Shown one piece after another: positions 3,080-26,729 of a stretch of DNA of 64,000 bases (position 1 is its first letter; every line of letters begins with the position of its first letter). Position numbers and translations under genes: made by a program. This stretch comes from an uncultured Cohaesibacter sp. (GTDB lineage Bacteria; Pseudomonadota; Alphaproteobacteria; Rhizobiales; Cohaesibacteraceae): positions 5,039,001-5,103,000 of the forward strand of contig NZ_OY762905.1 in NCBI RefSeq assembly GCF_963666525.1. Direction: 5' to 3'. The notes under the pieces were generated by a model. That model did not search any database, was not told where the DNA came from, and saw only the letters and a program-made list of their open reading frames with translations.

Positions 3080-3730
3080 ATGAAACAGGTGGAAATTGAC
3101 GATATCGTTGCGTTTCTCAGAGAAGCTGCGACGCGCATGAAAGAGGCGGCCGATTATCTCGGTCAGCTCGACGGAGAGATCGGCGATGGCGATCATGGCT
3201 ACACCATGTCGCGCGGCTTTTCCGCCATCGTCAGAGCATTGAATGAAATCGATGTTCAGTCCCATGACATGTCGACGCTCTTCAGGTCCTGCGCTGAGAG
3301 CTTTCTGGAAGCGGTTGGTGCCACTCCCGGCCCGCTTTATGCCTCCGGCCTGATTGCGGCGGGAGATTTTGCGGGCAATCGTTCGGCGATGGATGCAGAC
3401 CAAGCTCTGATGATTCTGGTTGCCATCTCTGACGGGATCGGTGCGCGTGGCAAGGCAATTGCGGGCGACAAGACCATGATGGATGTATGGCTTCCTGTAG
3501 TACAGACAATCAAGAACCTCAGGCAGGAGAATGCGCCGCTTGAGGTCATTCTGTCTGAGATCCGGACCTCGGCCAATCGCGGCGTGGAAAGTACACGGTC
3601 CATGGTGGCCATGCGCGGCCGTGCGGCACGCCTTGGCGGGCGCAGCCTTGGGCACATCGATCCAGGGGCAGCCTCCGCCGCCATCATCATCGACAGCTTT
3701 GCAAATATTCTAGAGCAGAGGGCGCTCTAA
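3080..3730 (+). CDS. Second DhaL-type subunit, partner of the regulator-kinase fusion
   Basis: A 216-residue DhaL paralogue with DGEIGDGDHG (Asp31, Asp36, Asp38), GATPGPLYASG and GDKTMMD, so the nucleotide site looks intact. The ATG at 3080 gives the normal DhaL N-terminus (MKQVEIDDIVAFL); the TTG 96 bp upstream adds residues the family lacks. Its stop codon overlaps the start of the next gene by one base (TAATG), so it is translationally coupled to the SorC-DhaK fusion. It therefore looks like a dedicated nucleotide subunit for that fusion rather than a spare copy of the first DhaL. In E. coli, DhaL also acts as a co-regulator of DhaR, so a regulatory role is plausible. Confidence 0.85.
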   Translation: MKQVEIDDIVAFLREAATRMKEAADYLGQLDGEIGDGDHGYTMSRGFSAIVRALNEIDVQSHDMSTLFRSCAESFLEAVGATPGPLYASGLIAAGDFAGNRSAMDADQALMILVAISDGIGARGKAIAGDKTMMDVWLPVVQTIKNLRQENAPLEVILSEIRTSANRGVESTRSMVAMRGRAARLGGRSLGHIDPGAASAAIIIDSFANILEQRAL

Positions 3731-5805
3731 TGCCCCCAAAGAAGCGGCTGAGTGCCGCTCGCCCCGAAAAGACAGGTTCCGAGCCCGATCTGGTCATGCC
3801 ATTGCGATTTGGCAATGATCCGTTGCTGTGGGCCAGCTGGCTCTATTACGAAGAGGGTATGACGCAAGGCGACATCGCGCGGACAATCGGAGTTTCGCGC
3901 GCTACAGTAATATCCTATCTCGCCGACGCTAGGACCCGCGGTCTGGTCAACATTTCCATTGAAACCGAGCATCTCAAGACCCTTACGATATCTAAGGCGC
4001 TCAAAGAGCATTTCGGGCTGAGAGACTGTCTGGTCATCCCCGGCGATGGTGGTGACAGGTCTTTGATCGACCGCCTTGGCGCTGCAGGCGCCCAGGTCCT
4101 GCAGGGCATTCTGAGATCTGGCGACACGATAGGTGTCGGCTGGGGCCGGACTGTTCTGGCATCAGCCCAGGCACTCAATATCGACAATCTTCAAGATGTG
4201 AGGGTTGTTCAGGCCACAGGTACGACCTCTGGCCATGTGCCTTTCACGCCCGCCGCGTGCGCGACAAAGATGGCAGCCGCCATTCGGGCAGAATGTGTGC
4301 CGATTTCCGCCCCGGCGATCGTCTCCAGCCCTGATCTGCGCGATATCCTGACCAGCGAGCCACTGGTTAGGGAACAGCTCGCAACTCTTGGTCAGCTGAA
4401 CTGCATTGTCTTCGGCATTGCCTCTTTGAGGCCCAATTCAACGTTGCACAGCTCCGGGTTCTTCCATGATGATCCCGAGCTTCGCGATGCCTATTCCACT
4501 GCAGTCGGAGCCATTGCCGGTCGCTACATCAATGAGCGTGGCAAACTCGTCAAGGGCCCCTTGGAAGACCGTACGATCGGCATCACCCTTGGCCAGTTGG
4601 CTCGGGTCAAGCAGCGGATCGGCATCGCCGGTGGCACGGACAAGGTGCCAGCCATTCTGGCCACTTTGCGCGGCGGATTTGTCAACATCCTCATCACTGA
4701 CGCGACAACCGGTCTTGGCATTCTGAGCGCTGACGGCAAGAAGGGATCGATCCGACCCGAAAAGGAAGTCGCCGAGCCAACTGAATCCATCAAGCGTACC
4801 CGGGTCAAGAAATTCCTCAACGAACCCGAAGATGCGGTTGATGAATCGCTGGAAGGGGCCGTTCTTGAATATGCCCAGTATCTGAAACCGGCGCGCAAAT
4901 CCAACCGCGCACTTGTAGCCCAGGATGGCCCTCGTGCGGGCAAGGTCGGGCTGGTCATCGGCGGGGGTGCCGGACATGACCCTTATTTCTATGGTTATGT
5001 CGGCAAGGGCCTCGCCGATGCCGTTGCGATAGGCAACATTTTCGCGTCGCCTCCTCCCATGCCCATCCTCGAATGCACGAGGGCGGCAAATGGTGGGGCA
5101 GGGGTCGTCTATCTGTTCGGCAACTATTCCGGAGATATCTTGAACTTTGAAATGGCCGCAGACATGGCCAAACGCGAAGGCATAGATGTGCGCACCGTCA
5201 TCACCACGGATGATATTGCGTCCTCGCGCAAGGAAGACCGCGAAAGCCGCCGCGGGGTAGCTGGCAACGTTTTTGTCTTCAAGATCGCCGGCGCCGCCTG
5301 CGACCAGATGCTGCCCATCGAGAGGGTCGAGGAACTGGCACGGAAGGCCAACCGCGAAACCTATACCGTCGGTGTGGCACTGGAACCCTGCTCCATGCCG
5401 GAGACGCGACGCCCCACCTTTCTGATCGGTGAAAATGAAATGGAAGTCGGCGTGGGTGTTCACGGCGAACCTGGCATCGCCCGCCAGCCTCTGGTCAGCG
5501 CCAATGACACCGCAGACATCATGGTTGACCGCATTCTGGCGGAAATGGCCCCCGAGCGTGGCGATGAAGTGGCGCTGCTGGTCAATTCTCTGGGAGCAAC
5601 ACCGATGATGGAATTGCTCATTATCGCCCGCCGCGTTCGCCAGCGACTGAAGGCGCGCAATGTCCATGTTGCCCGAAGCTGGACAGGAAGCTACTGCACC
5701 TCCCTTGACATGTCCGGTGTATCGATCTCCATGATGAAACTGGATGCCGAGCTGAAGGTCCTTCTGGATCATCCCTGCAACGCTGCTTCTTTCCAGATAC
5801 GCTAG
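3730..5805 (+). CDS. SorC-family transcriptional regulator fused to a DhaK kinase domain
   Basis: A 691-residue two-part protein. Residues about 43-69 (MTQGDIARTIGVSRATVISYL) form a helix-turn-helix. Residues about 75-340 are a SorC/DeoR-type sugar-binding domain. From about residue 358 a complete DhaK domain follows, with GGGAGHDPYFYGYVG, NYSGDILNFEMA and the nucleophilic histidine His578 in VHGEPG. Both halves look full length and intact, so this is a real fusion. I infer that the DhaK domain either senses the ketose or phosphorylates it with the coupled DhaL and passes the product to the SorC domain, which in its family binds sugar phosphates. It probably controls the operon in which it lies. 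This architecture is known from automated annotation; the mechanism is my inference. Confidence 0.88.
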   Translation: MPPKKRLSAARPEKTGSEPDLVMPLRFGNDPLLWASWLYYEEGMTQGDIARTIGVSRATVISYLADARTRGLVNISIETEHLKTLTISKALKEHFGLRDCLVIPGDGGDRSLIDRLGAAGAQVLQGILRSGDTIGVGWGRTVLASAQALNIDNLQDVRVVQATGTTSGHVPFTPAACATKMAAAIRAECVPISAPAIVSSPDLRDILTSEPLVREQLATLGQLNCIVFGIASLRPNSTLHSSGFFHDDPELRDAYSTAVGAIAGRYINERGKLVKGPLEDRTIGITLGQLARVKQRIGIAGGTDKVPAILATLRGGFVNILITDATTGLGILSADGKKGSIRPEKEVAEPTESIKRTRVKKFLNEPEDAVDESLEGAVLEYAQYLKPARKSNRALVAQDGPRAGKVGLVIGGGAGHDPYFYGYVGKGLADAVAIGNIFASPPPMPILECTRAANGGAGVVYLFGNYSGDILNFEMAADMAKREGIDVRTVITTDDIASSRKEDRESRRGVAGNVFVFKIAGAACDQMLPIERVEELARKANRETYTVGVALEPCSMPETRRPTFLIGENEMEVGVGVHGEPGIARQPLVSANDTADIMVDRILAEMAPERGDEVALLVNSLGATPMMELLIIARRVRQRLKARNVHVARSWTGSYCTSLDMSGVSISMMKLDAELKVLLDHPCNAASFQIR

Positions 5806-9510: not shown

Positions 9511-9530
9511 AATTCTCAAATATGAGAATT
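9511..9530. promoter_or_regulatory. Palindromic operator upstream of pyrK (copy 1)
   Basis: AATTCTCA-AATA-TGAGAATT: perfect 8-bp arms with a 4-bp spacer. The same arms, ATTCTCA and TGAGAAT with a 4-bp AT spacer, recur at 17999-18017 in the promoter of the ABC transporter operon. Two copies in front of two functionally related operons make a shared regulator binding site likely. The best candidate regulator is the XRE protein at 18200. Confidence 0.75.
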
Positions 9531-9533
9531 GTC

Positions 9534-9563
9534 TTGACCGATCCTGATTTTGAGGGGTAAGCT
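9534..9563 (+). promoter_or_regulatory. Possible sigma-70 promoter of the pyrKD operon
   Basis: TTGACC at 9534-9539 and TAAGCT at 9558-9563, separated by 18 bp. The -35 element begins 4 bp after the palindromic operator. The match is modest, so the assignment is tentative. Confidence 0.4.
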
Positions 9564-9944
9564 CTCATCTTAGCAATACTGGAACTAGGAACAAGAGATG
9601 ACTCTTCCCTTTTCGAGCTTTTGTCGCGGCGCCGGGCATCCGACGCATACAGCGCTGACTGTGCGGATCTGGTGCATCAAATCGATCCAGAAACAGAGCC
9701 TGACGCTTGCTTCCTCTCTTTCCATGCTTCCATCCATGGTCCGCCGCAAGGCTGACCGCATTGCATTGACTTGGCCATCTCTCTTGCGTCTGCATCGAGC
9801 GAACAATCGCCGATGGTGCTTGGCTCTCCGTTCCTGATCGTTTTCCGATCTCCCCTTTCAAAACAATTTCCTTTTGCCAGCTTTCTTCGTTTCAAGCCCG
9901 GACTTGAAGCGAAGCGAGACCCATTTTCTATTTCAGAGAGAACA
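9564..9944 (+). other. Long pyrK leader with a 12-bp hairpin at 9885-9914
   Basis: About 380 bp separate the proposed promoter from the pyrK ATG. Near its end CTTCGTTTCAAG and CTTGAAGCGAAG pair over 12 bp (one U-G) around a CCCGGA loop, and the stretch that follows, to the ATG, is T-rich in part. This could be an attenuator or a translation-control hairpin. A 79-codon open frame beginning at 9598 has no recognisable protein character, so I do not call it a gene. Confidence 0.45.
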
Positions 9945-10760
9945 ATGACCATCGATATCGGATTCAAACGCATTTACGAGACATCCTGTGTTGTCAAAAG
10001 CAACATAACGATCAATCGCGAATACAAGCGGATGGTGCTGGATGCTCCGTCACGGATTCTCGATTGCGAGCCGGGGCAGTTCTTTCATTTGCTCTGTCCG
10101 AGCACGAGCGAGCTGCAGCCCTATTTCCGCCGCCCCATGAGCATCTATGGATACTATCCAGACACCGGTGAGCTGCATTTTCTCTACAAGATAGCCGGCG
10201 AGGGTACTGCCGCCCTTGCGTCCCTGGAGCCGGGAGAGGCGTTGAATGTCGTCGGCCCGCTTGGGCATGGTTTTGAAATTCGGGATGACTGGCAGCACCT
10301 GATGGTCGTTGCACGTGGCGTCGGGCTGGCAACACTGGCACCATTGGCCCATAAGGCCCGGCTGATGGGGCGCAAGCTGACGGCAATTTGCAGCGCCAGA
10401 TCGCCCGAGGTATTGATGTCGATCGATCATTTCCGTGAACTCGGCGCAAACGTCATCCCTGTCACGGACAGCGAAGGTACATCCAGCGTCCAAAATCTGG
10501 AACGTCTGATCGAGCAGCAAATCACAAACGAAGATGTAGACGCCTTCTACACCTGCGGTTCCAGCCGGATCCTGCATCTGTTGCAGTCCATAAGCACACG
10601 ATACGGAATCCCCGGCCAGATAGCCCTTGAGCAACAGATGGCCTGTGGCGTTGGCATGTGTCAGTGCTGCGTCCGGTCTTTCCGTCGCAATGGCGGAATT
10701 GTCAATGAGCGGGTCTGCAAGGAAGGCCCGGTATTCGATCTTCAAGAGGCCATTGCATGA
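9945..10760 (+). CDS. PyrK-like FAD/[2Fe-2S] electron-transfer subunit of dihydroorotate dehydrogenase
   Basis: A 271-residue ferredoxin-reductase-type protein. The FAD domain carries FRRPMSIYGYY and the NAD domain carries GPLGHGFEI and ARGVGLATLAPL. The C-terminus has the [2Fe-2S] cysteines Cys234, Cys239, Cys242 and Cys258 in the C-x4-C-x2-C-x15-C pattern expected of PyrK. The ATG at 9945, with GAGAGAA in front, gives the normal N-terminus. It shares ATGA with the PyrD gene, so the two are coupled and should form a PyrK2PyrD2 complex that exchanges electrons between NAD(H) and orotate/dihydroorotate. Most alphaproteobacteria make pyrimidines with a quinone-linked PyrD, so a type 1B pair in a catabolic setting suggests reduction of orotate. 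Confidence 0.85.
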   Translation: MTIDIGFKRIYETSCVVKSNITINREYKRMVLDAPSRILDCEPGQFFHLLCPSTSELQPYFRRPMSIYGYYPDTGELHFLYKIAGEGTAALASLEPGEALNVVGPLGHGFEIRDDWQHLMVVARGVGLATLAPLAHKARLMGRKLTAICSARSPEVLMSIDHFRELGANVIPVTDSEGTSSVQNLERLIEQQITNEDVDAFYTCGSSRILHLLQSISTRYGIPGQIALEQQMACGVGMCQCCVRSFRRNGGIVNERVCKEGPVFDLQEAIA

Positions 10761-11701
10761 CTGATCTTTCCGTAACTGTCGGTTCCCTGCGTCTTCAGAA
10801 CCCGATCATGCCGGCCTCCGGAACCTTTTCGGAAGATCTGGCAAAGGTTTTCGACATCGGCATGCTTGGCGCACATGTGACCAAGACGATCACGCGCGAC
10901 ATTCGCGGAGGCAATCCAACGCCTCGTGTCTGCGAAGTGCGGGGATCAATGTTGAATTCGATCGGTATCCCTAGCAAGGGCGTCGACTATTTCAAATCCG
11001 AAGTCGTTCCCTTCTATAATCAGTATGACACGCCACTCGTCGTCAGCATCTCGGCGGGCAGTGCCGACGAGTTTGCACGCCTGTGCGAGGAAATCAGCGT
11101 TCCCGGCGTGGCAGCCATTGAGGTCAACATCTCGTGCCCCAACATTGAGGCCGATGGCAAGGCCTTCGCCATGCGTCCCTCAACCACCGAAGAGGTCATG
11201 AGAAGGCTCAGGTCTGCAACGGATCTGCCGCTATGGGCCAAGCTGTCACCGAACACTGGCGAGACGACGGAGGTCGCACTCGCAGCGGAAGGGGCAGGGG
11301 CTGACGCCCTCGTCGTTGCCAATACGCTCCTTTCTATGGCCATCGATATCCGTACCCGCAAACCAAAGCTAGGCAATCTGATGGGGGGGCTGTCCGGCCC
11401 GGGCCTCAAACCCATCACCCTTCGCATGACCTACCAGTGCGCAAAAGCCGTCGATATCCCGATCATCGGCTGTGGCGGCATTTCGACGGTCGAGGATGTC
11501 ATCGAATATCTCATCGCTGGGGCATCTGCTGTCCAGGTGGGGACCGCAACCTTTATCCGCCCGACTGCCATGGTGCAGATCATTCGTGACCTTGCCGCCT
11601 ATGTCGAAAGTCAGGGCCTTGTCGGTGTTTCTGACCTCACAGGCTCGATCCGCGATGAGGAAGCCTCCGATGGCATCGTATTTTTGGAAGCAGCACAATG
11701 A
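10757..11701 (+). CDS. Dihydroorotate dehydrogenase family protein, class 1B catalytic subunit
   Basis: A 314-residue FMN TIM-barrel protein. It has the 1B hallmarks: VTKTITRD with the active-site lysine, MLNSIGIP, NISCPN with the catalytic cysteine Cys127, ANTLLSM, and the FMN phosphate-binding GCGGIST and GASAVQVGTA. The asparagine-rich residues that hold the orotate carboxylate and ring in class 1 enzymes look conserved, so orotate/dihydroorotate is the likeliest substrate pair. It is not PreA/PydA, because the C-terminal 4Fe-4S domain is absent. The gene is coupled by ATGA overlaps both to pyrK before it and to the amidase after it. The direction of catalysis is inferred from context. Confidence 0.82.
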   Translation: MTDLSVTVGSLRLQNPIMPASGTFSEDLAKVFDIGMLGAHVTKTITRDIRGGNPTPRVCEVRGSMLNSIGIPSKGVDYFKSEVVPFYNQYDTPLVVSISAGSADEFARLCEEISVPGVAAIEVNISCPNIEADGKAFAMRPSTTEEVMRRLRSATDLPLWAKLSPNTGETTEVALAAEGAGADALVVANTLLSMAIDIRTRKPKLGNLMGGLSGPGLKPITLRMTYQCAKAVDIPIIGCGGISTVEDVIEYLIAGASAVQVGTATFIRPTAMVQIIRDLAAYVESQGLVGVSDLTGSIRDEEASDGIVFLEAAQ

Positions 11702-12990
11702 CCGCACTATCCCTGTCCATGATTCCGAGTAACACCCACACCGACTATCAGGCCATTGCGTCGCAACTTTTTGACGAGATAGCGGCCTTTTCAGCGGACG
11801 TACAGGGCATCAGCCGACCGGCCTTCTCGGAGCTGGAGACACGCACGCTGGCCTATCTGGCGGATTTTGCCGAGAGCCATGGTCTTGATGTTTCCTATGA
11901 TGCAGGCCAAAACGCCGTCTTTTCCCTACCGTGCGACACAGACGCCGAGGCTTTTGTGATCGTCGGCTCCCACGTCGACACCGTACCGCAAGGTGGAAAC
12001 TTCGACGGTTTGGCTGGTGTCATCACTGGGCTGATGTGTCTGGTGCGGGCCCAGAATGAGGGATTGCGCTTCGCACAGCCGGTAAAAGTTCTGGCCATGC
12101 GCGGTGAGGAAAGTGCCTGGTTCGGGCCGTGCTACATCGCCTCGAAGGCATTGCTTGGTCGCTTGACGCCAGAGGAACTGCGAGCCCGCCACAAGGGTGA
12201 CAGGAAAACGCTCGATGAACATATGGAAGCCGTCGGGATCGACATGGCAGCCGTAAGGGATGGCCAACCGCTGCTCGATACAAAATCCGTGCGCGCATAC
12301 ATCGAGCTTCATATCGAGCAAGGCCCGTTGCTGGTTCAAAAAGATCTGCCCGCCGCTGTGGTATCCGGCATTCGCGGCAACTTCCGCCATCAGAAGATCC
12401 GCTGCGTTGGTGAGGCAGGGCATTCAGGCGCAGTGCCTCGAGCCTTTCGCCGAGACCCCGTTCTGGCGCTGGCCGACCTTTTGACCCGCCTTGATGAAAG
12501 CTGGCTGACCATTCTTCAAAAAGGCGATGATCTGGTCCTGACAAGTGGCATCGTCTCAACCGATGTTGAACGTCATGCACTGTCTCGCATACCAGACTGG
12601 GTGGATTTCAGCCTCGACATCCGTAGCCAGAGTTCTCATGTGCTTAAGGCCATGCAGGAGCTACTGGCGCAGGAAATGCGGACAATCGAGCGCGAGCGCA
12701 GAGTAAGTTTCGAACTGGACGACACACTGCTCACCGCTCCAGCTCTCAGTGACCCGACAATTGTCGAGGGAATGAAATCTGCCATGGAAACCATCGGTCT
12801 GGAGCCCTTTGTGATGGCTTCGGGCGCAGGTCATGATGCCGCCGTTTTCGCCAATGCCGGCGTGCCGACAGCGATGGTTTTTGTCAGGAACCGAAACGGG
12901 TCTCACAACCCCGCCGAAGCCATGGACATCCCAGATTTCATGATCGCAACGGAGATCATCTACACCTATCTCATGGAGGCAAAGAGCTGA
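11698..12990 (+). CDS. M20-family N-carbamoyl-amino-acid amidohydrolase (ureidosuccinase/allantoate amidohydrolase type)
   Basis: A 430-residue metallo-amidase of the hydantoinase/carbamoylase group. Metal-site motifs are VGSHVDTVPQGGNFDG, RGEESAWFG, LHIEQGP and, near the C-terminus, SGAGHDAAVFA and SHNPAEAMD. GEAGHSGAVP marks the lid domain. Family members split N-carbamoyl amino acids, beta-ureidopropionate or allantoate into the amine, CO2 and ammonia. Behind PyrK-PyrD, N-carbamoyl-L-aspartate is the logical substrate: orotate to dihydroorotate to carbamoyl-aspartate to aspartate. The ring-opening dihydroorotase is not in the window and would have to come from elsewhere. The frame overlaps pyrD by 4 bp, so it belongs to the same transcript. 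Confidence 0.85.
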   Translation: MTALSLSMIPSNTHTDYQAIASQLFDEIAAFSADVQGISRPAFSELETRTLAYLADFAESHGLDVSYDAGQNAVFSLPCDTDAEAFVIVGSHVDTVPQGGNFDGLAGVITGLMCLVRAQNEGLRFAQPVKVLAMRGEESAWFGPCYIASKALLGRLTPEELRARHKGDRKTLDEHMEAVGIDMAAVRDGQPLLDTKSVRAYIELHIEQGPLLVQKDLPAAVVSGIRGNFRHQKIRCVGEAGHSGAVPRAFRRDPVLALADLLTRLDESWLTILQKGDDLVLTSGIVSTDVERHALSRIPDWVDFSLDIRSQSSHVLKAMQELLAQEMRTIERERRVSFELDDTLLTAPALSDPTIVEGMKSAMETIGLEPFVMASGAGHDAAVFANAGVPTAMVFVRNRNGSHNPAEAMDIPDFMIATEIIYTYLMEAKS

Positions 12991-13114
12991 AAAACAGCCG
13001 AAGTCTCCTGATTACGTCCCCGACGTGCAGGACCCGCCCTGCATCAATGGCCACAAGGCCTCTCAATACACAACAAACCGCACACTAGAGCCACACATAC
13101 GGAAAGGCAAAACA

Positions 13115-13435
13115 ATGTTCAAAGAACTACTCGACATCCTTATCGAAGGAAGCAAGGGCGTCAGCGCCTACAAGAAATGCGCCAGTGTCGCCCGCGAAAA
13201 GGCTGTGTCAAACCCTGACCATGCCGCTTGCTACTTCCTGTTCGGCATCATCGCCCAGGATTTTGCAGACAAGTTCGACCGGGAACCTCTGAGCAGCGCT
13301 GTTGCCAAGGACCAGTATGACCGTATCGAAAACTACACCAAACTGCTTGGTGAAGCCTTTGGGTCCGGTACGGCCGAGGCACAAGTGGCAGCACTCAACA
13401 GTGTCGCCAAGGAAATCGTTCCTCAAATTTCCTGA
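13115..13435 (+). CDS. Small helical protein of unknown function at the end of the pyrKD-amidase operon
   Basis: 106 residues from ATG 13115, chosen for the GGAAAGG site 8 bp upstream and because the upstream extension looks unlike protein. The sequence begins MFKELLDILIEG, is rich in Ala, Lys and Glu, and looks all-helical. It has two cysteines (KKCASVAR and HAACYFLFG), no signal peptide and no membrane span. I do not recognise a family. It lies 124 bp after the amidase on the same strand and is the last gene before a convergent operon. It could be a small accessory or regulatory subunit of the pathway; no catalytic motif supports an enzyme. Confidence 0.6.
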   Translation: MFKELLDILIEGSKGVSAYKKCASVAREKAVSNPDHAACYFLFGIIAQDFADKFDREPLSSAVAKDQYDRIENYTKLLGEAFGSGTAEAQVAALNSVAKEIVPQIS

Positions 13436-13477
13436 TCAATCGACAGCGTCTCTTTCAAGAGCCGTTTGGTGGCTGGA

Positions 13478-13504
13478 AGGCGATCCTCTTGCCAAGGATC
13501 GCCT
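13478..13504 (+). terminator. Hairpin after the small gene
   Basis: Perfect 10-bp arms (AGGCGATCCT/AGGATCGCCT) with a 7-nt loop, 40 bp beyond the stop of the small gene. No T-run follows, so termination may be weak. The stretch from here to 13795 has no convincing gene on either strand. Confidence 0.55.
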
Positions 13505-13795
13505 CAACGGCACCATGCAACCTCCGTCTGGTCAGACAAGCCTCACAAGGCATCACGCCACAATACACGCGCCCACAGCATCCGCGGCATGGCGCACCAG
13601 ATAGTGCGGATAGCGCTTTATAGATCCCCCAACCAATTTTGCCGAACCACAAAAAAGCAGGCCACCTGTAGGAGGGGACCGCTGGAATTCGTTTTTGCCT
13701 TTGACCGACCCTGAAGATGCACGGCTCCGGCATCCTTCGCATTCGTGGAGACGGGGTAAAAGGCCTTTGCAAGCGCTAGAGGGAAAAGAGTAGCT

Positions 13796-13817
13796 AGGCC
13801 CGCCAACTGACGGGCCT
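13796..13817 (-). terminator. Hairpin after the ABC transporter operon
   Basis: AGGCCCG and CGGGCCT form a 7-bp GC-rich stem with an 8-nt loop, 11 bp beyond the stop codon of the last transporter gene. It is a likely terminator for the leftward operon. Confidence 0.6.
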
Positions 13818-13828
13818 TTCAGCATCGC

Positions 13829-14566
13829 CTAAAGGAAGCGGTCCTCAACTCGCCGACGGCCATAATCGAGGATGGCGAACAGTGCCCAGCCGACGAAGGA
13901 CAAGAGAATGACCATGCCCATCACCGTAGCGGTATCGGCATTTTCCTGACCGGTGGCCAGTACAAACCCCATGCCCTTGTTGGCGCCCATCAACTCGCCG
14001 ATGACGGCTGCTGTCATCGCCAGCGTGGTTGCCACGGTTGCTCCGGCGAAGAGCGTTGGAATGGCGGCTGGCAATTCGATGTGCCAGAATCTCTGCCATG
14101 GGGACAATCTAAGCACAACAGACAGATCCGAATAGGATTTGTTCATGTAGCGAATGCCCGAGAGCATCGCGGTCATGACGGGAAAGAAGGTTACAACAGC
14201 CACAAGTGCAACTTTGGGTGAAGCACCAAGGCCAAGCCACAACAGCAGAAGTGGTGCAATTGCGATCTTGGGAATGGTCTGTAGCAGCAGGATGAGCGGT
14301 GTCAACACCCGCTCTACAATGGGAAAGCGCGAGAAGACCAACGCGGCCGCAATACCGACGACTGCACCCAGAATGAACCCGCCAAAAACTTCCGAAAGCG
14401 TCACATAGATGTGCCATGCCAGATCTCCCCTCTGAAACAGGAAAATGATCCGCTCAGCCACTTCAATGGGACCGGGAAGCAGATAGTGTGGCACATCGAA
14501 AATCGGAACCGCCGCGCCCCAAAGCACGGCGATTCCAACGAGGCCTATGATGGCTTTCAAGAACAT
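13829..14566 (-). CDS. ABC transporter permease (SsuC/ThiX type), second copy in operon
   Basis: A 245-residue inner-membrane protein of the binding-protein-dependent permease family. About six membrane spans are visible, with the EAA-type loop that contacts the ATPase (LSPWQRFWHIELPAAIPTLFAGATVA). The N-terminal VPHYLLPGPIEVAERI is typical of the nitrate/taurine/thiamine-precursor subgroup. It starts 6 bp after the binding-protein gene and is the last gene of the leftward operon. Together with the other permease it would make a heterodimeric channel for the ligand of the NMT1/THI5-like binding protein. Confidence 0.9.
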   Translation of the reverse strand: MFLKAIIGLVGIAVLWGAAVPIFDVPHYLLPGPIEVAERIIFLFQRGDLAWHIYVTLSEVFGGFILGAVVGIAAALVFSRFPIVERVLTPLILLLQTIPKIAIAPLLLLWLGLGASPKVALVAVVTFFPVMTAMLSGIRYMNKSYSDLSVVLRLSPWQRFWHIELPAAIPTLFAGATVATTLAMTAAVIGELMGANKGMGFVLATGQENADTATVMGMVILLSFVGWALFAILDYGRRRVEDRFL

Positions 14567-14572
14567 GAGCGA

Positions 14573-15568
14573 CTACTTGATATCGGAAGGATCGACAACG
14601 AAGTCAGCGGCTTTCGCACCACCGGAGATGACTTTGTACTCGGTCAGAATATCAATGTTCTTCTGCCATGCATCAAGGTCAGCTGCGCCGAGGCCCTTTT
14701 CCTTGGTCAGAGCGCTCTGCCATACGGAAGCAACGAAGGTCTTTTCGAATGCAGTCGACAGCATGGCTTTCTGGTCGGTCCAGGTCGGGGTGTATTTGTC
14801 CATGGAGATCTGCAGCGCATCATCGATATGGCCATCAATGACCCATGCATAGGATGCGGTAACAGCGTTGGTCATGCGCTTGACCAGATCGGGATTGTCA
14901 GCCAGCAGCTTGGAGCTGGTGACGAGCACGTTGCCAAAGGACGGCAGGAAGTCGTTGGACAGGATCATGTTGACTTCGAAACCATTGGCTTCCAGAGCAT
15001 ATTTGCGCAGCTCGGAGAAGATGATGGCATCGACATCGTCAGACTGCAGCGTCTGGACAATCGCACCGGAAGAAACAACTTCAACCTTTACGTCGTCGAG
15101 GGTCAGACCAGCTTTGGCAAGGCCGACCTGCAGCTGCAGATAGTTCGGGCTGCCCAGTGAGGTAACAGCAACAGTCTTGCCTTTCAGATCGGCGTAAGTC
15201 TTGATGCCGCTGGAGCTTTTGGCAAGCAGGGCGCCGATGCCGCGCTGATAGGTGGTGTGAACAACTTTGATCGGCAGACCATTGGAAGCAGCTGCGACGA
15301 CAGCGTCGCCGTTGGGGAAGCCGAAATCAACGTTGCCGGCAGCAATGTTGGTCAGAATGTCGGATGCGCCGCCATAGAGAAATTCAACTTCAATACCCTG
15401 ATCGGCGAAGAAGCCGTTTTCAACGCCAGCATAGAGTGGTGCATAGAAGGGTACAACGTTACCGTCGATCTGCAGAACGACCTTGTCCTCGGCAGAAGCG
15501 CCCGTGGTGAAGATGGATGTGGCAACCAGAGCAAGGGTTGCTGCAAGTCCTCTGATGGTGAAAGACAT
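14573..15568 (-). CDS. NMT1/THI5-like ABC substrate-binding protein, probably for a pyrimidine compound
   Basis: 331 residues with a clear signal peptide (MSFTIRGLAATLALVATSI, cleaved near GASA-ED). It then shows the NMT1/THI5 fold marks: PLYAGVENGFFADQGIEVEFLYGG, DFGFPNGDAV and LKGKTVAVTSLGSPN. This family binds thiamine-pyrimidine precursors, other pyrimidines, riboflavin, nitrate or sulfonates. The ATG at 15568 shares one base with the stop of the phosphorylase gene (TAATG). The neighbours (nucleoside phosphorylase, and the PyrKD-amidase operon with the same operator) point to a pyrimidine base, nucleoside or orotate as ligand. That is inference. Confidence 0.85.
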   Translation of the reverse strand: MSFTIRGLAATLALVATSIFTTGASAEDKVVLQIDGNVVPFYAPLYAGVENGFFADQGIEVEFLYGGASDILTNIAAGNVDFGFPNGDAVVAAASNGLPIKVVHTTYQRGIGALLAKSSSGIKTYADLKGKTVAVTSLGSPNYLQLQVGLAKAGLTLDDVKVEVVSSGAIVQTLQSDDVDAIIFSELRKYALEANGFEVNMILSNDFLPSFGNVLVTSSKLLADNPDLVKRMTNAVTASYAWVIDGHIDDALQISMDKYTPTWTDQKAMLSTAFEKTFVASVWQSALTKEKGLGAADLDAWQKNIDILTEYKVISGGAKAADFVVDPSDIK

Positions 15569-16383
15569 TATTGTTTTTCCTTTGCGGTTTGGTGATAGTC
15601 GGAAGTTCTGGCCAACGCTGTACCAGCTATGTCGAGAAGTTTGCGTTGCGTGGGTTCGTAATCGACGAGCCAATCATTGGTCGCCCGATTGCCATGGACG
15701 CCAAGAAGGCAGGCCCCCTTCAGCCCGAGGCTGGCGGCAACAGACAGCACCGTCTGGCATTCCATATCGACACCGACGGCCCCGCGCGCCTGCAACTCCT
15801 TCAGGTAGCTGATCTTGGGGGGCTGGGTTGTGGACGTCACGACGGAGCGGTCCTGACCAAAATAATAGCTGTCTGTGCTGCCGACCATGCCGGAATAGAT
15901 CCGCGTATCGTCGCCGAGATCGGTGGACATCAGAGCCTGGTGCAGGTCAGCATCGGCAAGAGCAAGTCCATTCTCGACACCGGAGTAGAGCCGTGCCACG
16001 GAAGAATAGCCGGTTGCCTTGTCGACGCATAGGAAGGAACCTGTCGGGATTTCCTTAACAAGAGACGACATGCCACCAACGCGTATGACCCGTTTGGCGC
16101 CGAGCAAGGACAGCTCGATGAGAGCAATCTCAGTGGACGACCCGCCAATGCCGGTCGAACAGATGGTAAGCGGGTGACCGCGATATTTACCGGAAACGAC
16201 AGCGAACTCGCGCTTGCGGCCGAAATCCTGAACATCATCCAGTTGATCCGCCAGCAGGGCCACGCGATCCGGATCGCCGGGTAACAGCACGTCGGGGTAG
16301 ATGTCGCCGGGCCCACAAGGCAAATGGGGCGGACGTCCATTGGTAAATGGATGTTCGGCAGTCGGGGTTGACTTACTGCTCAT
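15568..16383 (-). CDS. Uridine-phosphorylase-family nucleoside phosphorylase
   Basis: A 271-residue PNP/UDP-1 family protein. Phosphate- and ribose-site motifs are LLPGDPDRV (residues 34-41), STGIGGSSTEIALIEL and VIRVGG, and the GVDMECQTV segment near residue 200 supplies the ribose-binding Met-Glu. The family converts nucleoside plus phosphate into base plus ribose-1-phosphate in the cytosol. The gene lies inside an ABC operon, overlapping the permease before it by 11 bp and the binding protein after it by 1 bp. An imported nucleoside would therefore be split at once. It is somewhat longer at the N-terminus than E. coli Udp. Pyrimidine specificity is likely from context but not proven by a motif. 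Confidence 0.85.
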   Translation of the reverse strand: MSSKSTPTAEHPFTNGRPPHLPCGPGDIYPDVLLPGDPDRVALLADQLDDVQDFGRKREFAVVSGKYRGHPLTICSTGIGGSSTEIALIELSLLGAKRVIRVGGMSSLVKEIPTGSFLCVDKATGYSSVARLYSGVENGLALADADLHQALMSTDLGDDTRIYSGMVGSTDSYYFGQDRSVVTSTTQPPKISYLKELQARGAVGVDMECQTVLSVAASLGLKGACLLGVHGNRATNDWLVDYEPTQRKLLDIAGTALARTSDYHQTAKEKQ

Positions 16384-17140
16384 CAGGCGTGCTCCAGGCG
16401 AGATAACGCGCTTCGATCTCGTTCAAAATCGCGTGCATGGCGAGCCCAAGGAACGCCGTCAACAGCACAGCGCCAAAGAGCAAAGGAGTTTTGTAGGTGG
16501 CCGTTGCGAAGGTCATCAGATAACCAAGCCCGTCAGACCCGGACATCCATTCGGCCAGAATGGCACCAACCAGTGCCTGAATGGCGCCAATCTTGATACC
16601 AACAAAGATGCCGGGAAGGGCGGCTGGCAAATCGATACGCAGAAAACGCTGCGTGCGGGAAAGGTTCATCAGGAGTGCAAGGTCATGCAGACGGCTGTCA
16701 ATGGACCTGAACCCGGCCAAAGCCCCGGCAAAAACGGGAAAGAAGACAAGGCTGAAGATCAGCACAATCTTTGCGGTGAGCCCGAGCCCGAACCAGATGA
16801 TGATCAACGGAGCGATCGCGATTTTAGGAGCAGTCTGAATGACCACCAACGGACCTTCCAGATAATCGCTGAGGGACGGCGTCTTGAAAAACATATAGGC
16901 CAGGAGAACACCGAAGATAGTCCCGACGATCAGACCAATCAGGATGTTCTGAACCGTAAAGGCCAAATGGGGCCACAACTTGCCACTGAGAACCATGTCC
17001 CACAACAGGGAACCAACCGACGCAGGAGAAGGCAGCAGATAGGCTGGCATGCCCATCGGACCGCTGACATACCACCACGCAGCAACCAGAACCAGAAGAG
17101 CACCACTATACTCCAGTACGGGTTTGATGCGCCCCTTCAT
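16373..17140 (-). CDS. ABC transporter permease (SsuC/ThiX type), first copy in operon
   Basis: A 255-residue membrane permease paralogous to the one at 13829. It shows MPAYLLPSPASVGSLLWDMV at the N-terminus, about six hydrophobic spans, and the coupling loop LSRTQRFLRIDLPAALPGIFVGIKIG. Its start overlaps the ATPase stop (ATGA) and its end overlaps the phosphorylase start by 11 bp, so translation is coupled throughout. Two different permeases with one ATPase gene suggest a heterodimeric channel with an ATPase homodimer. Confidence 0.9.
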   Translation of the reverse strand: MKGRIKPVLEYSGALLVLVAAWWYVSGPMGMPAYLLPSPASVGSLLWDMVLSGKLWPHLAFTVQNILIGLIVGTIFGVLLAYMFFKTPSLSDYLEGPLVVIQTAPKIAIAPLIIIWFGLGLTAKIVLIFSLVFFPVFAGALAGFRSIDSRLHDLALLMNLSRTQRFLRIDLPAALPGIFVGIKIGAIQALVGAILAEWMSGSDGLGYLMTFATATYKTPLLFGAVLLTAFLGLAMHAILNEIEARYLAWSTPDEQ

Positions 17141-17883
17141 GAGGTCATCTCCCGCATGAGCGTTCTCAGCTCCGAGACGAGGTCAAGGAACTTTGGATCC
17201 CGCTTGGTGCATTCGCCACGCGGCAAAGGAAGGTCGACTTCATAAGTTGCCTTGAGCCTGCCGGGGCGAGGACTCATCACCATCACGCGACTTCCCAGAT
17301 AGGCAGCCTCTTCGACAGAATGGGTTACGAGAAGAATGGTCTTGCCGGTCTTTTGCCAAATCCGGCTCAGCTCATCATTGAGCGTTTCGCGCGTCAACAG
17401 GTCGACAGCAGAGAAAGGCTCATCCATCAGCAGTATGGGCGGATCATCGGCCAGAGCGCGGGCAATGGCAGCGCGCTGGCGCATTCCACCGGACAACTGC
17501 TTGGGCAGGGACTTCTCGAATCCCTTGAGACCAACCAGCTCAACCAGTTCATTGACCTTCTCGTCGGCCTGTTTGCGCGGAACACCACTGGTATCGAGCG
17601 GGAAACGGATATTTTCTGCAACAGTCTTCCATGGCAGCAGAACCGCATCTTGAAAGACAAAGCCAACTGGACGTTTCAAGCCAGCCGTTTCAAGAGTAAC
17701 GCGGCCGGAAGTGGGGGCCTCCAGATTGGCAATCAAACGCAGAAGGGTAGACTTTCCGCAACCGGATGGGCCGATGATGGAGACGAACTCGCCCTCATTG
17801 ATCATCTGGTCCAGAGGTTCCAGCGCCACGACCTGGCCTTCACCCTGCCCATATGTCTTGCTGAGCTTTTCAATTTTAATCAA
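17137..17883 (-). CDS. ABC transporter ATP-binding protein (SsuB/ThiZ/TauB type)
   Basis: The ATPase has Walker A GPSGCGKST, Q-loop FVFQDAVLLPW, signature LSGGMRQRAAIARAL, Walker B ILLMDEPFSAVD and the switch histidine in VTHSVEEA. The frame is open up to 18006, but I place the start at TTG 17883 (MIKIEKLSKTYG). GGGAGAA lies 6 bp upstream of it, and this gives the usual 248-residue length. The extra upstream residues have no family match, and the longer form would start inside the promoter/operator. It is the first gene of the five-gene leftward operon and energises import through the two permeases. Confidence 0.88.
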   Translation of the reverse strand: MIKIEKLSKTYGQGEGQVVALEPLDQMINEGEFVSIIGPSGCGKSTLLRLIANLEAPTSGRVTLETAGLKRPVGFVFQDAVLLPWKTVAENIRFPLDTSGVPRKQADEKVNELVELVGLKGFEKSLPKQLSGGMRQRAAIARALADDPPILLMDEPFSAVDLLTRETLNDELSRIWQKTGKTILLVTHSVEEAAYLGSRVMVMSPRPGRLKATYEVDLPLPRGECTKRDPKFLDLVSELRTLMREMTS

Positions 17884-17995
17884 TGCAGTTCTCCCGCGTT
17901 CTTTCTGGGTGCGACTGTTTTGAGCTGGAAGGCACCTTGCCAAAGGGGTTTTGCCAATTTGGTCATGTTTTCCATGATCCATTCTCCATGTCAAG

Positions 17996-18025
17996 AATAT
18001 TCTCAATTTTGAGAATTGTTGTCAA
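17996..18025 (-). promoter_or_regulatory. Promoter of the ABC operon with embedded palindromic operator (copy 2)
   Basis: On the minus strand TTGACA (18025-18020) is followed after 17-18 bp by GAATAT/AATATT. The palindrome ATTCTCA-ATTT-TGAGAAT (17999-18017) fills the space between the two elements. A bound regulator would block RNA polymerase. Further half-sites resembling ATTCTC lie just downstream, near 17981. The palindrome arms equal those at 9511-9530. Confidence 0.7.
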
Positions 18026-18199
18026 AACATCTGGATTTATGCGAAATTTTGTGCAGATTTAAAATGCGTGTTAGGGTTGTTTTTCGAAGATAGCTCTCAC
18101 CATACAAAGAACCGCAAGCGAGGGACTTTTGGCATCTTCAGCTTGCAAATACGTCATGCTGAAGCTATTTCAGAAAAATCAGCAAGAAAGAAAGACCAG

Positions 18200-19093
18200 A
18201 TGGCAAAGCAGTACGAAACGGCTCTCGATATTGGGGATCGCTTGAGATTGGTGCGGGTCGGCAAAGGCCTGACGCCAGAGGAAGTTGCTACTGCCACCGG
18301 CATCTCGCGAGCCGCCATCTATCGCTACGAGGCCGGCAACCCGATCCGGGTCGATGCCTTGGGCAAGATTGCCGATTTCTTCGACGTTTCCATTGCGTCC
18401 CTGTTCGGTGTCGGTTCCGAATTCATCGCCTCTGCAAAAGACTTTTTCGAAAGGATGCGGCAGATCGAGGCCGTCGCAGACCAGATCACAGCCTTGTTTG
18501 GTCCGGTTGCTTTCCTGCTTACCACAGACAATTTCGACAAGCTGCTGAAACAGCTCCTCCATGAAAGTGTGCCAGAAGCTGCGCCGAATCAGCAAAGCCT
18601 CGATAAGGAAATCGACCAGATCCTCAAGATCCTCTATGAGCGGAAGTCGGCCTATCGCTATCGACGGCCGAACATCGTCAGCCTGGTATCTGCAGCAGAG
18701 TTGGAACAGATGCTGTTGACCGGGCTTGTAGGGCGCTATGGCCTGTCGGACGACGTTGTCTCAGAGCGCAAGGAAGCCGCAATGATCGAGGCCGAAAATA
18801 TCTTGCGCCTGATGACGGACCAGCCGATGGGCGTGCAAATCGGGCTGGTCGAAGATTCCTTGCCCGGGGCCAGCTTTCAGATCCTGAAAAACGGACCCAG
18901 CTCCGTTGTCGCCGTCAGTCCGTTTCGTCTTGGGCTCTACGCCAACATCAGGGTAGGGGTAGGGACCATCACCTCTGCCCATGAGTCTGTCGAACTGCAC
19001 CAGAAAGTCACGGCCGACTTGTGGCACAACAGCAAAAAGAGTGTCGACGCCGTCGAACGTGTCAAAGAAATCATCAGACAGCACTCCAGGTAG
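18200..19093 (+). CDS. XRE-family transcriptional regulator with C-terminal sensor region
   Basis: 297 residues from ATG 18200, chosen because the DNA-binding domain starts right after it. Residues about 12-70 are a Cro/CI-type helix-turn-helix (IGDRLRLVRVGKGLTPEEV, then TGISRAAIYRYEAG). The remaining 220 residues have no named motif that I recognise and probably sense a ligand. The gene is divergent from the ABC operon and shares its control region, which contains the ATTCTCA-N4-TGAGAAT palindrome. That makes it the natural candidate to bind both copies of the operator and to control import and catabolism together. A hexamer-like C-terminal fold or an acyl-CoA-type sensor cannot be excluded. 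Confidence 0.8.
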   Translation: MAKQYETALDIGDRLRLVRVGKGLTPEEVATATGISRAAIYRYEAGNPIRVDALGKIADFFDVSIASLFGVGSEFIASAKDFFERMRQIEAVADQITALFGPVAFLLTTDNFDKLLKQLLHESVPEAAPNQQSLDKEIDQILKILYERKSAYRYRRPNIVSLVSAAELEQMLLTGLVGRYGLSDDVVSERKEAAMIEAENILRLMTDQPMGVQIGLVEDSLPGASFQILKNGPSSVVAVSPFRLGLYANIRVGVGTITSAHESVELHQKVTADLWHNSKKSVDAVERVKEIIRQHSR

Positions 19094-19294: not shown

Positions 19295-20065
19295 ATGTCG
19301 GCAATGATTGGTCTTGAAACAACCATACGAAACATTCAAGACGCATCGACCGTCGATGCGGCCTTTGAAGTGTTCAAGACATATCTGGTTGATCTTGGCT
19401 ACGACAATGCCGTTTACACTCTGCTGACCGATCATCCATCGATTGGCCAACAGGCCCTCCATGGCGTTGCGACCGACTACCCGGAAGACTGGATCCGTTA
19501 TTATATCGATCAGGGCTATCAGCAGATCGATCCAGTTTGCATATACTCCCTGAAACGCCCTGTGCCATTCTTCTGGAAAGATGCGGTTGAGAGCCTCCGT
19601 CGCGATCCGCATATCGACCCTTCACTGCTGGCACGATCGTCTCTGGTCATGGACCAGGGGGCAGAAGCCGGTGTCGCCGATGGTATTGGCATGTCATTTA
19701 TCAACCGCTACGGCGAGGTTGCCGGATTCGGGATTTCGCGAGAGAGAGTTGAGCCCACACACGACTACACTGTACTCAGCGCCATCTACCTAGCCGCCTC
19801 CATGTTCCACGACAAATTCCTCAGCCTGCATTCCAATGTTGCCACACCGAGCCTGACGCAGAGGGAGAAGGACATTTTGGCCTGGGCGGCGGAGGGCAAA
19901 TCCGATTGGGAAATTGCTACGATACTGGGCATCAAACATCCCACGGTACGCTATCACTGGAGCAACATTTTCAAAAAGCTCGACGCGACAAACAGACTAC
20001 TGGCAACCGCCATTGCCATTCAAAAGAAAATTGTCACACCGCAATCGATCCGGCTGCAAAAATGA
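19295..20065 (+). CDS. LuxR-type autoinducer-binding regulator (solo)
   Basis: A 256-residue quorum-sensing-type regulator. The N-terminal autoinducer-binding domain keeps the diagnostic residues: WIRYYIDQGYQQIDPV holds the Trp, Tyr, Asp and Pro that line the acyl-homoserine-lactone pocket of TraR/LuxR, and a further Trp follows in PFFWKD. The C-terminal GerE helix-turn-helix is LTQREKDILAWAAEGKSDWEIATILG and on. No luxI-type synthase is in the window, so it is a solo at least locally. It may respond to signals made elsewhere in the genome or by other bacteria. Its targets are unknown; no clear lux box was found in the 200 bp upstream. Confidence 0.88.
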   Translation: MSAMIGLETTIRNIQDASTVDAAFEVFKTYLVDLGYDNAVYTLLTDHPSIGQQALHGVATDYPEDWIRYYIDQGYQQIDPVCIYSLKRPVPFFWKDAVESLRRDPHIDPSLLARSSLVMDQGAEAGVADGIGMSFINRYGEVAGFGISRERVEPTHDYTVLSAIYLAASMFHDKFLSLHSNVATPSLTQREKDILAWAAEGKSDWEIATILGIKHPTVRYHWSNIFKKLDATNRLLATAIAIQKKIVTPQSIRLQK

Positions 20066-25256: not shown

Positions 25257-26414
25257 ATGTCGCACATTCATTGGCTCGGCGCAGGTCTTTCTTCTGTGCC
25301 CGGTATTCGCCGACTCATTTCCAGAAACCATCAAATCACTCTCTGGAACCGTACAGTATCAAAGGCAGAGGCCGCAACCGTCGGGCTTGAAGGCTCTTTC
25401 GACGTCAAGGCTTTCACTCTGGAGGCGCTCAAGGCAGCCATCAAGGCTGGCGATGTGGTTGTCTCCATGTTGCCTGCCACCATGCATGTAGAGATCGCAC
25501 AGGCCTGTCTGGAAGCGGACTGCCACTTTGTCTCGTCCTCCTATGTCAGCCCGGAAATGGCCGCCCTTGACGAAAAGGCAAAAGCCAAGGGCCTGACCTT
25601 TGTCAACGAAGTCGGGCTCGATCCGGGACTCGATCATCTTCTGGCCCACCTCCTGATGACCGATTACAAGGCCAGCGACGTTTATGATCCGAAGAACAGC
25701 CACGAGTTCCGTTCCTTCTGCGGCGGCTTTCCGGCCATTGCCAATGATTTCAGATACAAGTTCAGTTGGTCTCCGCTTGGCGTATTGAAGGCATTGAAAA
25801 GCCCGGCCAAGGCAATCCTTGGTGGTGAGGTTGTCACAACGCAAAAGCCATGGGATGCAATTTCGGACTATTCTGCAAATCTTCCGGGCGGATCTGAAAT
25901 TTTCCAGTCCTATCCGAACCGCGATTCCCTGCCATTCATGGAAACCTACGGCATCGGCTCCGACTGGAATGTACATACCTTCGTGCGCGGAACCCTGCGC
26001 CTTGACGGCTGGTCCGATGCCTGGGCAGACATTTTCCATTTCGTTGAACATGAATTGACTGGCCCCGATGGCGACGCCAAGCTGGCAGCCATGAGCGAGA
26101 AGCTATGGACTGAATATGCCTACGACAAGGGTGAGCCGGATCGCGTGGTGCTGGTGGTCGATCTCAAGGTCACCAAGGACGGCAATACCGTATGGCACAA
26201 GGACTACGCGCTTGATTCCAAGGGAGATGCCGAATTCTCGGCCATGTCGCGTCTTGTCTCCATTCCGGTCAGCCTCGCTGTCGAAACGGTCCTGGAAGGT
26301 CGCCTTGCCGCTGGTGTGATGGCCGCTCCGTCCGACCCTACGACCATTCATCGCTGGTTCGAGGAAATCAAGGCACATGGCGACGAGTTCCATCTCAGCG
26401 AACATGTCTCCTGA
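25257..26414 (+). CDS. Saccharopine-dehydrogenase-family protein, paralogue 1
   Basis: A 385-residue oxidoreductase. The N-terminal Rossmann motif is unusual: HWLGAGLSSVPGIRRLI, a GxGxxS variant. The saccharopine dehydrogenase core follows, with VVSMLPATMHVEIA, HFVSSSYVSPEMAALDEKAKAKGLTF and NEVGLDPGLDHLLAHLL. This group includes lysine-forming and glutamate-forming saccharopine reductases, but the bacterial homologues are mostly unassigned. The second copy at 26730 is closely similar over its whole length, so the two arose by tandem duplication. A terminator separates them, so they are transcribed independently and may be used under different conditions. Confidence 0.85.
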   Translation: MSHIHWLGAGLSSVPGIRRLISRNHQITLWNRTVSKAEAATVGLEGSFDVKAFTLEALKAAIKAGDVVVSMLPATMHVEIAQACLEADCHFVSSSYVSPEMAALDEKAKAKGLTFVNEVGLDPGLDHLLAHLLMTDYKASDVYDPKNSHEFRSFCGGFPAIANDFRYKFSWSPLGVLKALKSPAKAILGGEVVTTQKPWDAISDYSANLPGGSEIFQSYPNRDSLPFMETYGIGSDWNVHTFVRGTLRLDGWSDAWADIFHFVEHELTGPDGDAKLAAMSEKLWTEYAYDKGEPDRVVLVVDLKVTKDGNTVWHKDYALDSKGDAEFSAMSRLVSIPVSLAVETVLEGRLAAGVMAAPSDPTTIHRWFEEIKAHGDEFHLSEHVS

Positions 26415-26441
26415 GCCGGGGCTCGTTTTGAGGCAATAAAG

Positions 26442-26470
26442 AAGGCCCGGATTCGTCCGGGCCTTTTTTT
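26442..26470 (+). terminator. Terminator after saccharopine-dehydrogenase paralogue 1
   Basis: A 10-bp stem (AAGGCCCGGA/TCCGGGCCTT) with a TTCG loop and a T7 run, 28 bp after the stop codon. Confidence 0.92.
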
Positions 26471-26547
26471 ACCCGTCTCGCCCTTTTGGACGATCTTGCA
26501 GACACGACACATCTTCAACTATCGAATAATGCACAGAGCACAAAAAA

Positions 26548-26633
26548 TAGGCATGCCTAATTTGCCGTCATTTTATCTTGACTGACAACAGAAGGAGGCA
26601 TTTTGCCGAAATTGGCCGTCATTTTGCCGAATT
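26548..26633. promoter_or_regulatory. Cluster of repeated motifs upstream of paralogue 2
   Basis: TAGGCATGCCTA (26548-26559) is a perfect 12-bp palindrome. GCCGTCATTTT occurs at 26564 and 26615, and ATTTTGCCGAA at 26600 and 26621, a 21-bp spacing that places the copies on the same DNA face. Nothing comparable precedes paralogue 1. This is probably a regulator-binding region for paralogue 2. Confidence 0.55.
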
Positions 26634-26729
26634 AGTCAAATCATCCTCTTGCGGGCGCATCCGGTTAGCGCAAAGGTCGTACAAAAGCCGGCATCAAACA
26701 GTCTGGCACCCTTCCGCTGGAGCAAATAA

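Follow-up and report, generated by a model that had tools for sequence, protein, structure and literature searches.

The stretch of DNA analysed here, which we call the window, is 64,000 nucleotides of an uncultured Cohaesibacter sp. (contig NZ_OY762905.1, positions 5,039,001 to 5,103,000) whose genome measures 5.18 Mb. Our subject is a set of genes between positions 9512 and 19093 of the window, which very probably serves the breakdown of orotate. The first of its two operons holds pyrK, pyrD and an M20 amidase gene, and the translational coupling proposed for these three in the initial annotation is borne out by a 4-nt overlap (ATGA) at both the pyrK/pyrD and the pyrD/M20 junctions. The second, convergent to the first, runs from 18006 to 13829 and encodes in order an ABC ATPase, a permease, a PNP_UDP_1 phosphorylase, an NMT1-type binding protein and another permease. 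The small gene after M20, the convergent ABC operon with its phosphorylase and the XRE gene divergent from that operon are all as first described. So is the palindrome common to both operons, whose two copies have identical arms and differ in the central four bases.

9512 to 9529, no strand assigned: 18-bp palindrome ATTCTCAAATATGAGAAT, probable operator of the pyrK operon (genome and window site scans; like site before the cassette in relatives)
9945 to 10760, + strand: pyrK-like electron transfer subunit, FAD and 2Fe-2S (Pfam DHODB_Fe-S_bind)
10757 to 11701, + strand: pyrD, class 1B dihydroorotate dehydrogenase, proposed orotate reductase (NCBIfam class 1, catalytic-Cys motif)
11698 to 12990, + strand: M20 ureido-amidase, proposed N-carbamoyl-L-aspartate amidohydrolase or ureidosuccinase (TIGR01879, metal-site motifs, linkage)
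13115 to 13435, + strand: small all-helical cassette protein, 106 aa (conservation, loci with it in the M20 frame, AF2 model)
13829 to 14566, - strand: ABC permease 2 (BPD_transp_1)
14573 to 15568, - strand: NMT1/THI5-type binding protein (PF09084 above cut-off)
15568 to 16383, - strand: uridine-phosphorylase-like enzyme, proposed orotidine (pyrimidine nucleoside) phosphorylase (PF01048 above cut-off, His-Gly change)
16373 to 17140, - strand: ABC permease 1 (BPD_transp_1)
17137 to 18006, - strand: ABC ATPase (ABC_tran)
17999 to 18016, no strand assigned: 18-bp palindrome ATTCTCAATTTTGAGAAT, probable operator of the ABC operon and XRE gene (genome and window site scans; overlap with a promoter-like site)
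18200 to 19093, + strand: XRE-family regulator of the cassette (HTH_3)

The true start of the ABC ATPase gene is probably the TTG at 17883 and not 18006, and for the XRE gene the ATG at 18200 is more likely than the GTG at 18068.

Enzymes and small protein of the cassette

The window PyrD scores above two NCBIfam class 1 models (344.7 against a cut-off of 269, and 314.5 against 270) and is 96% identical to the PyrD of Cohaesibacter haloalkalitolerans. PyrK exceeds the Pfam DHODB_Fe-S_bind cut-off (44.8 against 23.9) and stays below those of the PyrK equivalogs (best 123 against 314, and 121 against 219). A subclass 1 PyrD with a PyrK partner that carries a 2Fe-2S site makes the pair a class 1B dihydroorotate dehydrogenase (DHOD). 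Among the 40 related loci described below, the CxxxxCxxC motif is present in 38 of 39 PyrK proteins and the catalytic-Cys motif N(I/V)SCPN in all 40 PyrD proteins; two cruder PyrD patterns fitted no more than 30 and 29 of the 40 and were not used. The window pair is like the class 1B enzyme of PDB entries 1EP1-1EP3 in its subunits, 2Fe-2S motif and catalytic-Cys motif, but differs from it in its proposed reversed direction, in lying next to an amidase and in having a class 2 enzyme in the same genome.

This class 2 quinone DHOD is encoded separately at 3.376 Mb of the host genome (488 against a cut-off of 366), and no third protein of the DHO_dh family was found there. The initial annotation had made its reading depend on PyrKD not being the only DHOD of the organism, which the class 2 enzyme bears out. 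The dihydroorotase that the pathway also needs is found as well, in a PyrC-PyrE pair at 1.398-1.400 Mb with both members above their cut-offs (PyrC at 1.399 Mb, TIGR00856, 431 against 293); cassette-type PyrC and PyrE have one copy each in the host genome. The cassette-type PyrD occurs in six of the 18 genomes of the genus that were searched and is lacking in the other 12 (completeness is just 64% for one of the 18), and is therefore dispensable there. When the host and 100 relatives were compared, nine of the 101 genomes had a PyrD of at least 72% identity; PyrK and M20 adjoin it in all nine, and each of the nine carries at least one additional DHOD-type match. In two relatives, whose PyrD is at 54% and 50% identity, no M20 lies within 1.5 kb of it.

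The M20 protein passes TIGR01879 (hydantoinase/carbamoylase, 264.6 against 204) and misses the named M20 models (PRK12891, 393 against 461; the allantoate amidohydrolase subfamily, 368.5 against 399; others lower). Its kin include beta-alanine synthase and carbamoylases. It shares its family and metal-site motifs with 3N5F and AllC (1Z2L), and the four motifs are kept in 38 of 38 cassette M20 proteins. What sets it apart from those two enzymes is PR in place of PM after the active-site His-x-Gly, which is also seen in some unlinked M20s. In a tree, the window protein falls within a well-supported group of 31 cassette M20s, while the remaining linked ones belong to another, less well supported group or lie outside; the linked set forms no single supported clade; ten unlinked M20s cluster together (support 99/97). 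A strict signature, IRGN, was rejected after it was found in 10 of 10 linked but also in 5 of 10 unlinked proteins. We propose that the window enzyme may be an N-carbamoyl-L-aspartate amidohydrolase, that is, a ureidosuccinase.

The small protein (13115-13435) matches no Pfam or NCBIfam family. Its AlphaFold model consists of five helices with a mean predicted local distance difference test (pLDDT) score of 94.8, and a fold search of this model against the PDB gave no convincing match (best E 1.3). The protein is conserved in an alignment of 23 sequences. It was found at 21 of the 40 loci, and at four more, which are rhizobial, it shares a single open frame with M20; on an Agrobacterium plasmid one coding sequence covers both (10001-11659 of L124). 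A Klebsiella plasmid and a Variovorax plasmid likewise have a homologue after the cassette. From this context our guess is that it could be an accessory subunit of the M20 amidase.

Linkage and transport in related genomes

Related loci were collected by a PyrD scan with one genome per species, and the six-frame translations of the 40 resulting loci were profile-searched. The fetched stretches reached at most 10 kb on each side of PyrD, and some were ended by contig ends. PyrD is accompanied by PyrK at 39 of these loci, by M20 at 38, by the TRAP genes DctP, DctQ and DctM at 27 each, by PyrE at 26 and by PyrC at 18. The ABC operon with phosphorylase is present at 7 and the phosphopentomutase DeoB at 5. 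A frequent order is XRE | DctP-DctQ-DctM-PyrK-PyrD-M20, followed by PyrC and PyrE where present and then the small protein. At locus L041 the TRAP and the ABC/phosphorylase versions both flank a single XRE gene. The PyrC and PyrE of L041 and the DeoB of L058 pass curated cut-offs.

A second sample was selected by M20 from 385 genomes of the class (E at most 1e-90, at most four candidates scored per genome) and gave 21 places in 17 genomes. With the query's own place excluded, PyrE adjoins M20 at 10 of the 10 places with 46-49% identity, and within 1.5 kb PyrC is present at five of them, PyrD at three and XRE at four. At the ten places with 40-44% identity, one of which is a second M20 gene of the host genome, none has PyrK, PyrD, PyrC, PyrE or XRE within that distance. 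The conserved linkage that the first reading called for is thus seen from both sides, with M20 at most PyrD loci and PyrE beside every close M20 relative of this sample.

The transporter type changes between loci, and PyrK-PyrD-M20 is the constant part. The DctP of L041 has 64% identity over 320 residues (450 bits) to PDB 4NN3, a TRAP substrate-binding protein of Maridesulfovibrio salexigens for which bound orotic acid is reported in PMC11668362. This likeness belongs to the DctP of a related cassette and not to the window, whose locus has no TRAP genes and carries the ABC operon with phosphorylase instead. An MFS gene takes the transporter place on Klebsiella and Variovorax plasmids, as does a different NMT1-type ABC system at L112.

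The plasmid relatives deserve a separate remark. On Klebsiella pneumoniae plasmid pBckp091-1 (L123, 6552-19546), for which milk is given as source, a divergent MFS gene and PyrK-PyrD-M20-PyrC-XRE-small lie beside lacY-lacZ. Ruminant milk is high in both lactose and orotate. Among the plasmid records matched by M20 relatives, 53 of 78 are Klebsiella, and an 11.4-kb stretch with the orotate and lac genes is covered to at least 80% by 49 plasmid records. This stretch had no near match among the complete E. coli genomes searched.

The palindrome and the XRE regulator

In the whole host genome the two sites of the locus are the only matches to ATTCTCA-WWWW-TGAGAAT without mismatch. With up to three mismatches allowed there are 24 sites against one for the reversed control, and in the window the two matches compare with 0.32 expected, two being reached in 1 of 100 shuffles. 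An XRE gene is present at 29 of the 40 PyrD-selected loci. Near it, TTCTCA-N4-TGAGAA with up to two mismatches was found at 24 of 29 loci (7 exact), compared with 6 of the 375 control windows that these loci supplied; the controls are mostly coding, and shuffling the regions themselves leads to the same result for most of them. The rhizobia have one operator-like site before PyrK/XRE and another before the ABC operon, and at L055, where XRE lies between PyrD and M20, one precedes DctP and another M20. A palindrome arising by chance was rejected on the genome counts, the window shuffles and this recurrence near XRE in relatives. Two further sites with intact arms (551,135 and 2,691,226) were treated as chance; they lie in long open reading frames that by eye are ribosomal protein L3 and a phosphate permease.

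The second palindrome overlaps a promoter-like site of the ABC operon (- strand, 18025-17996; two such sites in the stretch against 0.5 expected), where it takes in the larger part of the 18-nt spacer and three bases of the second hexamer. At the first palindrome no such site was found. The 416-nt stretch upstream of pyrK is similar to that of C. marisflavi near the palindrome and divergent further down, and it has no riboswitch match in Rfam up to E 1. The conservation of the palindrome supports a single regulon, in which the XRE protein would probably repress both operons through the common site and release it when an inducer derived from orotate is present. The predicted structure of the XRE protein gave phospholipase-D-like (PLD) and TrmBL2 fold matches at low template modelling (TM) scores only, which were not used. 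C. marisflavi has two cassette-type XRE genes (L038, 7657 and 18391), one upstream of pyrK and one by the ABC operon.

Proposed orotate breakdown and its alternatives

We consider it highly likely that these genes are an orotate catabolic regulon of a marine bacterium, leading from orotate to aspartate, because of the linkage to PyrC and PyrE, the orotate-type TRAP protein, the common conserved operator and the spare DHOD. Orotate would be imported directly, or the phosphorylase would free it from a pyrimidine nucleoside, for which orotidine is the likeliest candidate. PyrK-PyrD would then reduce it with NADH to dihydroorotate, the PyrC encoded at 1.399 Mb would open this to N-carbamoyl-L-aspartate, and the M20 amidase would release aspartate, NH3 and CO2. 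The net effect would be the middle of pyrimidine synthesis run backwards, yielding aspartate and ammonia. The initial annotation had proposed orotate reduction, ring opening and decarbamoylation to aspartate, and this core is supported by the linkage, the spare DHOD and the TRAP likeness to 4NN3. The gene identities, the conserved palindrome and the conserved association with PyrC, with PyrE and with a TRAP importer of the orotate type are read from the sequences themselves. We infer the direction of flux, the substrate of the amidase, the nature of the inducer and what the ABC system and the phosphorylase bind.

Several observations weigh against this reading. PyrKD is present without M20 at L064 and L065. 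In four of the ten M20-PyrE genomes (G290, G292, G188 and G312) no match to class 1B PyrD reaches E 1e-15, and an M20-PyrE pair is therefore possible without PyrKD; at such pairs (L109, L110, L111 and L113) a different reductase or substrate would be required. Among 23 genomes searched, G108 (locus L055) has the cassette and no PyrC or PyrE match of the cassette type, and five (G059, G098, G102, G106 and G109) have no PyrC of that type beyond the one in the cassette, so that in some the genes may serve biosynthesis too. In the host, PyrC and PyrE lie away from the cassette, with no operator-like site there at up to three mismatches. Finally, genome G236 has the ABC/phosphorylase operon and is without a class 1B PyrD.

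The sole PyrC copies, together with PyrE at 26 of the 40 loci, could also speak for biosynthesis or salvage, in which PyrKD would be an oxygen-independent DHOD, PyrE would salvage imported orotate and M20 would only clear excess carbamoyl-aspartate. Genome G082 fits this: its PyrKD precedes PyrC and PyrE, M20 is absent within 1.5 kb, and it has no DHOD match apart from PyrKD. We find this improbable, as a carbamoyl-aspartate amidase would deplete the biosynthetic pool and yet only PyrK accompanies PyrD more constantly than M20 does; the host also has its class 2 DHOD, and 12 of the 18 genomes of the genus searched do without the cassette-type PyrD. Reductive catabolism of uracil, thymine or hydantoins, with PyrKD as dihydropyrimidine dehydrogenase and M20 as beta-ureidopropionase, would suit the beta-alanine synthase and carbamoylase kin of M20 and the resemblance of the phosphorylase to uridine phosphorylase. 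It seems very improbable, since the PreA score is 134.2 against a cut-off of 335, the linked genes are a dihydroorotase and an orotate phosphoribosyltransferase, and the TRAP relative is reported with orotic acid bound. Uracil catabolism was rejected, as there is no third DHO_dh protein and the best RutA score is 25 against a cut-off of 498. With neither a PreA-type protein nor RutA above cut-off, those two routes would leave uracil at a dead end.

The source of the orotate in the window variant is a further question, which turns on the phosphorylase. This enzyme belongs to the same family as uridine phosphorylase and shares its GQ(D/E)R motif, which we take to bind the pyrimidine ring, but it falls below the uridine phosphorylase equivalog TIGR01718 (129.2 against 280.3) and has His-Gly where the uridine phosphorylase of PDB 4g8j has Ile-Ile. 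All eight aligned cassette phosphorylases have His-Gly at this position. A broader search by pattern covered 22 loci, with some genes fetched twice; 17 matched, and all 17 had His-Gly, and two of the five loci without a pattern match show it in the alignment of eight. These positions presumably line the C5/C6 side of the base, and a basic residue there would fit the 6-carboxylate of orotidine. PDB matches of the NMT1-type binding protein include binders of pyrimidine precursors. DeoB lies beside the phosphorylase at five of the seven ABC/phosphorylase loci and on two plasmids, which fits a nucleoside as the source of ribose-1-phosphate; it was not seen at the window locus, and the rest of the host genome was not searched for it.

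We therefore suggest, tentatively and from sequence comparison, that the window variant may be an orotidine catabolic system. The NMT1-type ABC importer would take up orotidine, and the phosphorylase with its invariant His-Gly pocket would cleave it to orotate and ribose-1-phosphate, the latter passing to phosphopentomutase where deoB is linked. The orotate released in this way would go to aspartate through PyrKD, PyrC and the new ureidosuccinase family working with its small helical partner. A separate uridine-type nucleoside scavenging system, sharing only the regulator with the cassette, is a somewhat doubtful alternative. It would account for the operon of G236 and for a Microvirga plasmid whose phosphorylase operon has no cassette gene within 10 kb and no PyrD match on the plasmid. 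It accords less well with the distribution of the phosphorylase, which occurs in 9 of 397 genomes of the order, all nine with cassette-type PyrD and seven of them within about 10 kb of it, though the nine come from two genera only. M20 also lies within 10 kb on five of the six plasmid records with the phosphorylase, and uracil as product would meet the dead end noted above.

The biochemistry of orotate breakdown is decades old, and the pathway type is known from Clostridium (Zymobacterium) oroticum. Its orotate fermentation has the same steps as those proposed here, with NADH-linked orotate reduction, ring opening and a ureidosuccinase. What differs is the gene cassette, found mainly in Proteobacteria, with an importer, a regulator, an operator, often PyrE and the small protein. 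The gene set, the regulon and the ABC/phosphorylase variant were not described among the matches listed in our literature search, and Vetting 2015, on TRAP ligands, might discuss orotate genes. If the reading is correct, ureidosuccinase and a regulated route for orotate would both have genes assigned to them in marine alphaproteobacteria and rhizobia, with relatives also on plasmids of Variovorax and Klebsiella. Genes currently annotated as surplus pyrimidine biosynthesis would then be accounted for. The cassette gives a clear context to the small protein and offers a candidate orotidine phosphorylase.

Three other features of the window were noted. After the XRE gene, at 19295-20065, lies a LuxR-type protein with an autoinducer-binding domain, which has the same position in C. 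haloalkalitolerans. At 3730-5805 there is a 691-aa regulator-kinase fusion, in which a complete Dak1 (dihydroxyacetone kinase) domain comes after a regulator-type Sugar-bind domain. A pair of neighbouring saccharopine-dehydrogenase-like paralogues occupies 25257-27920.

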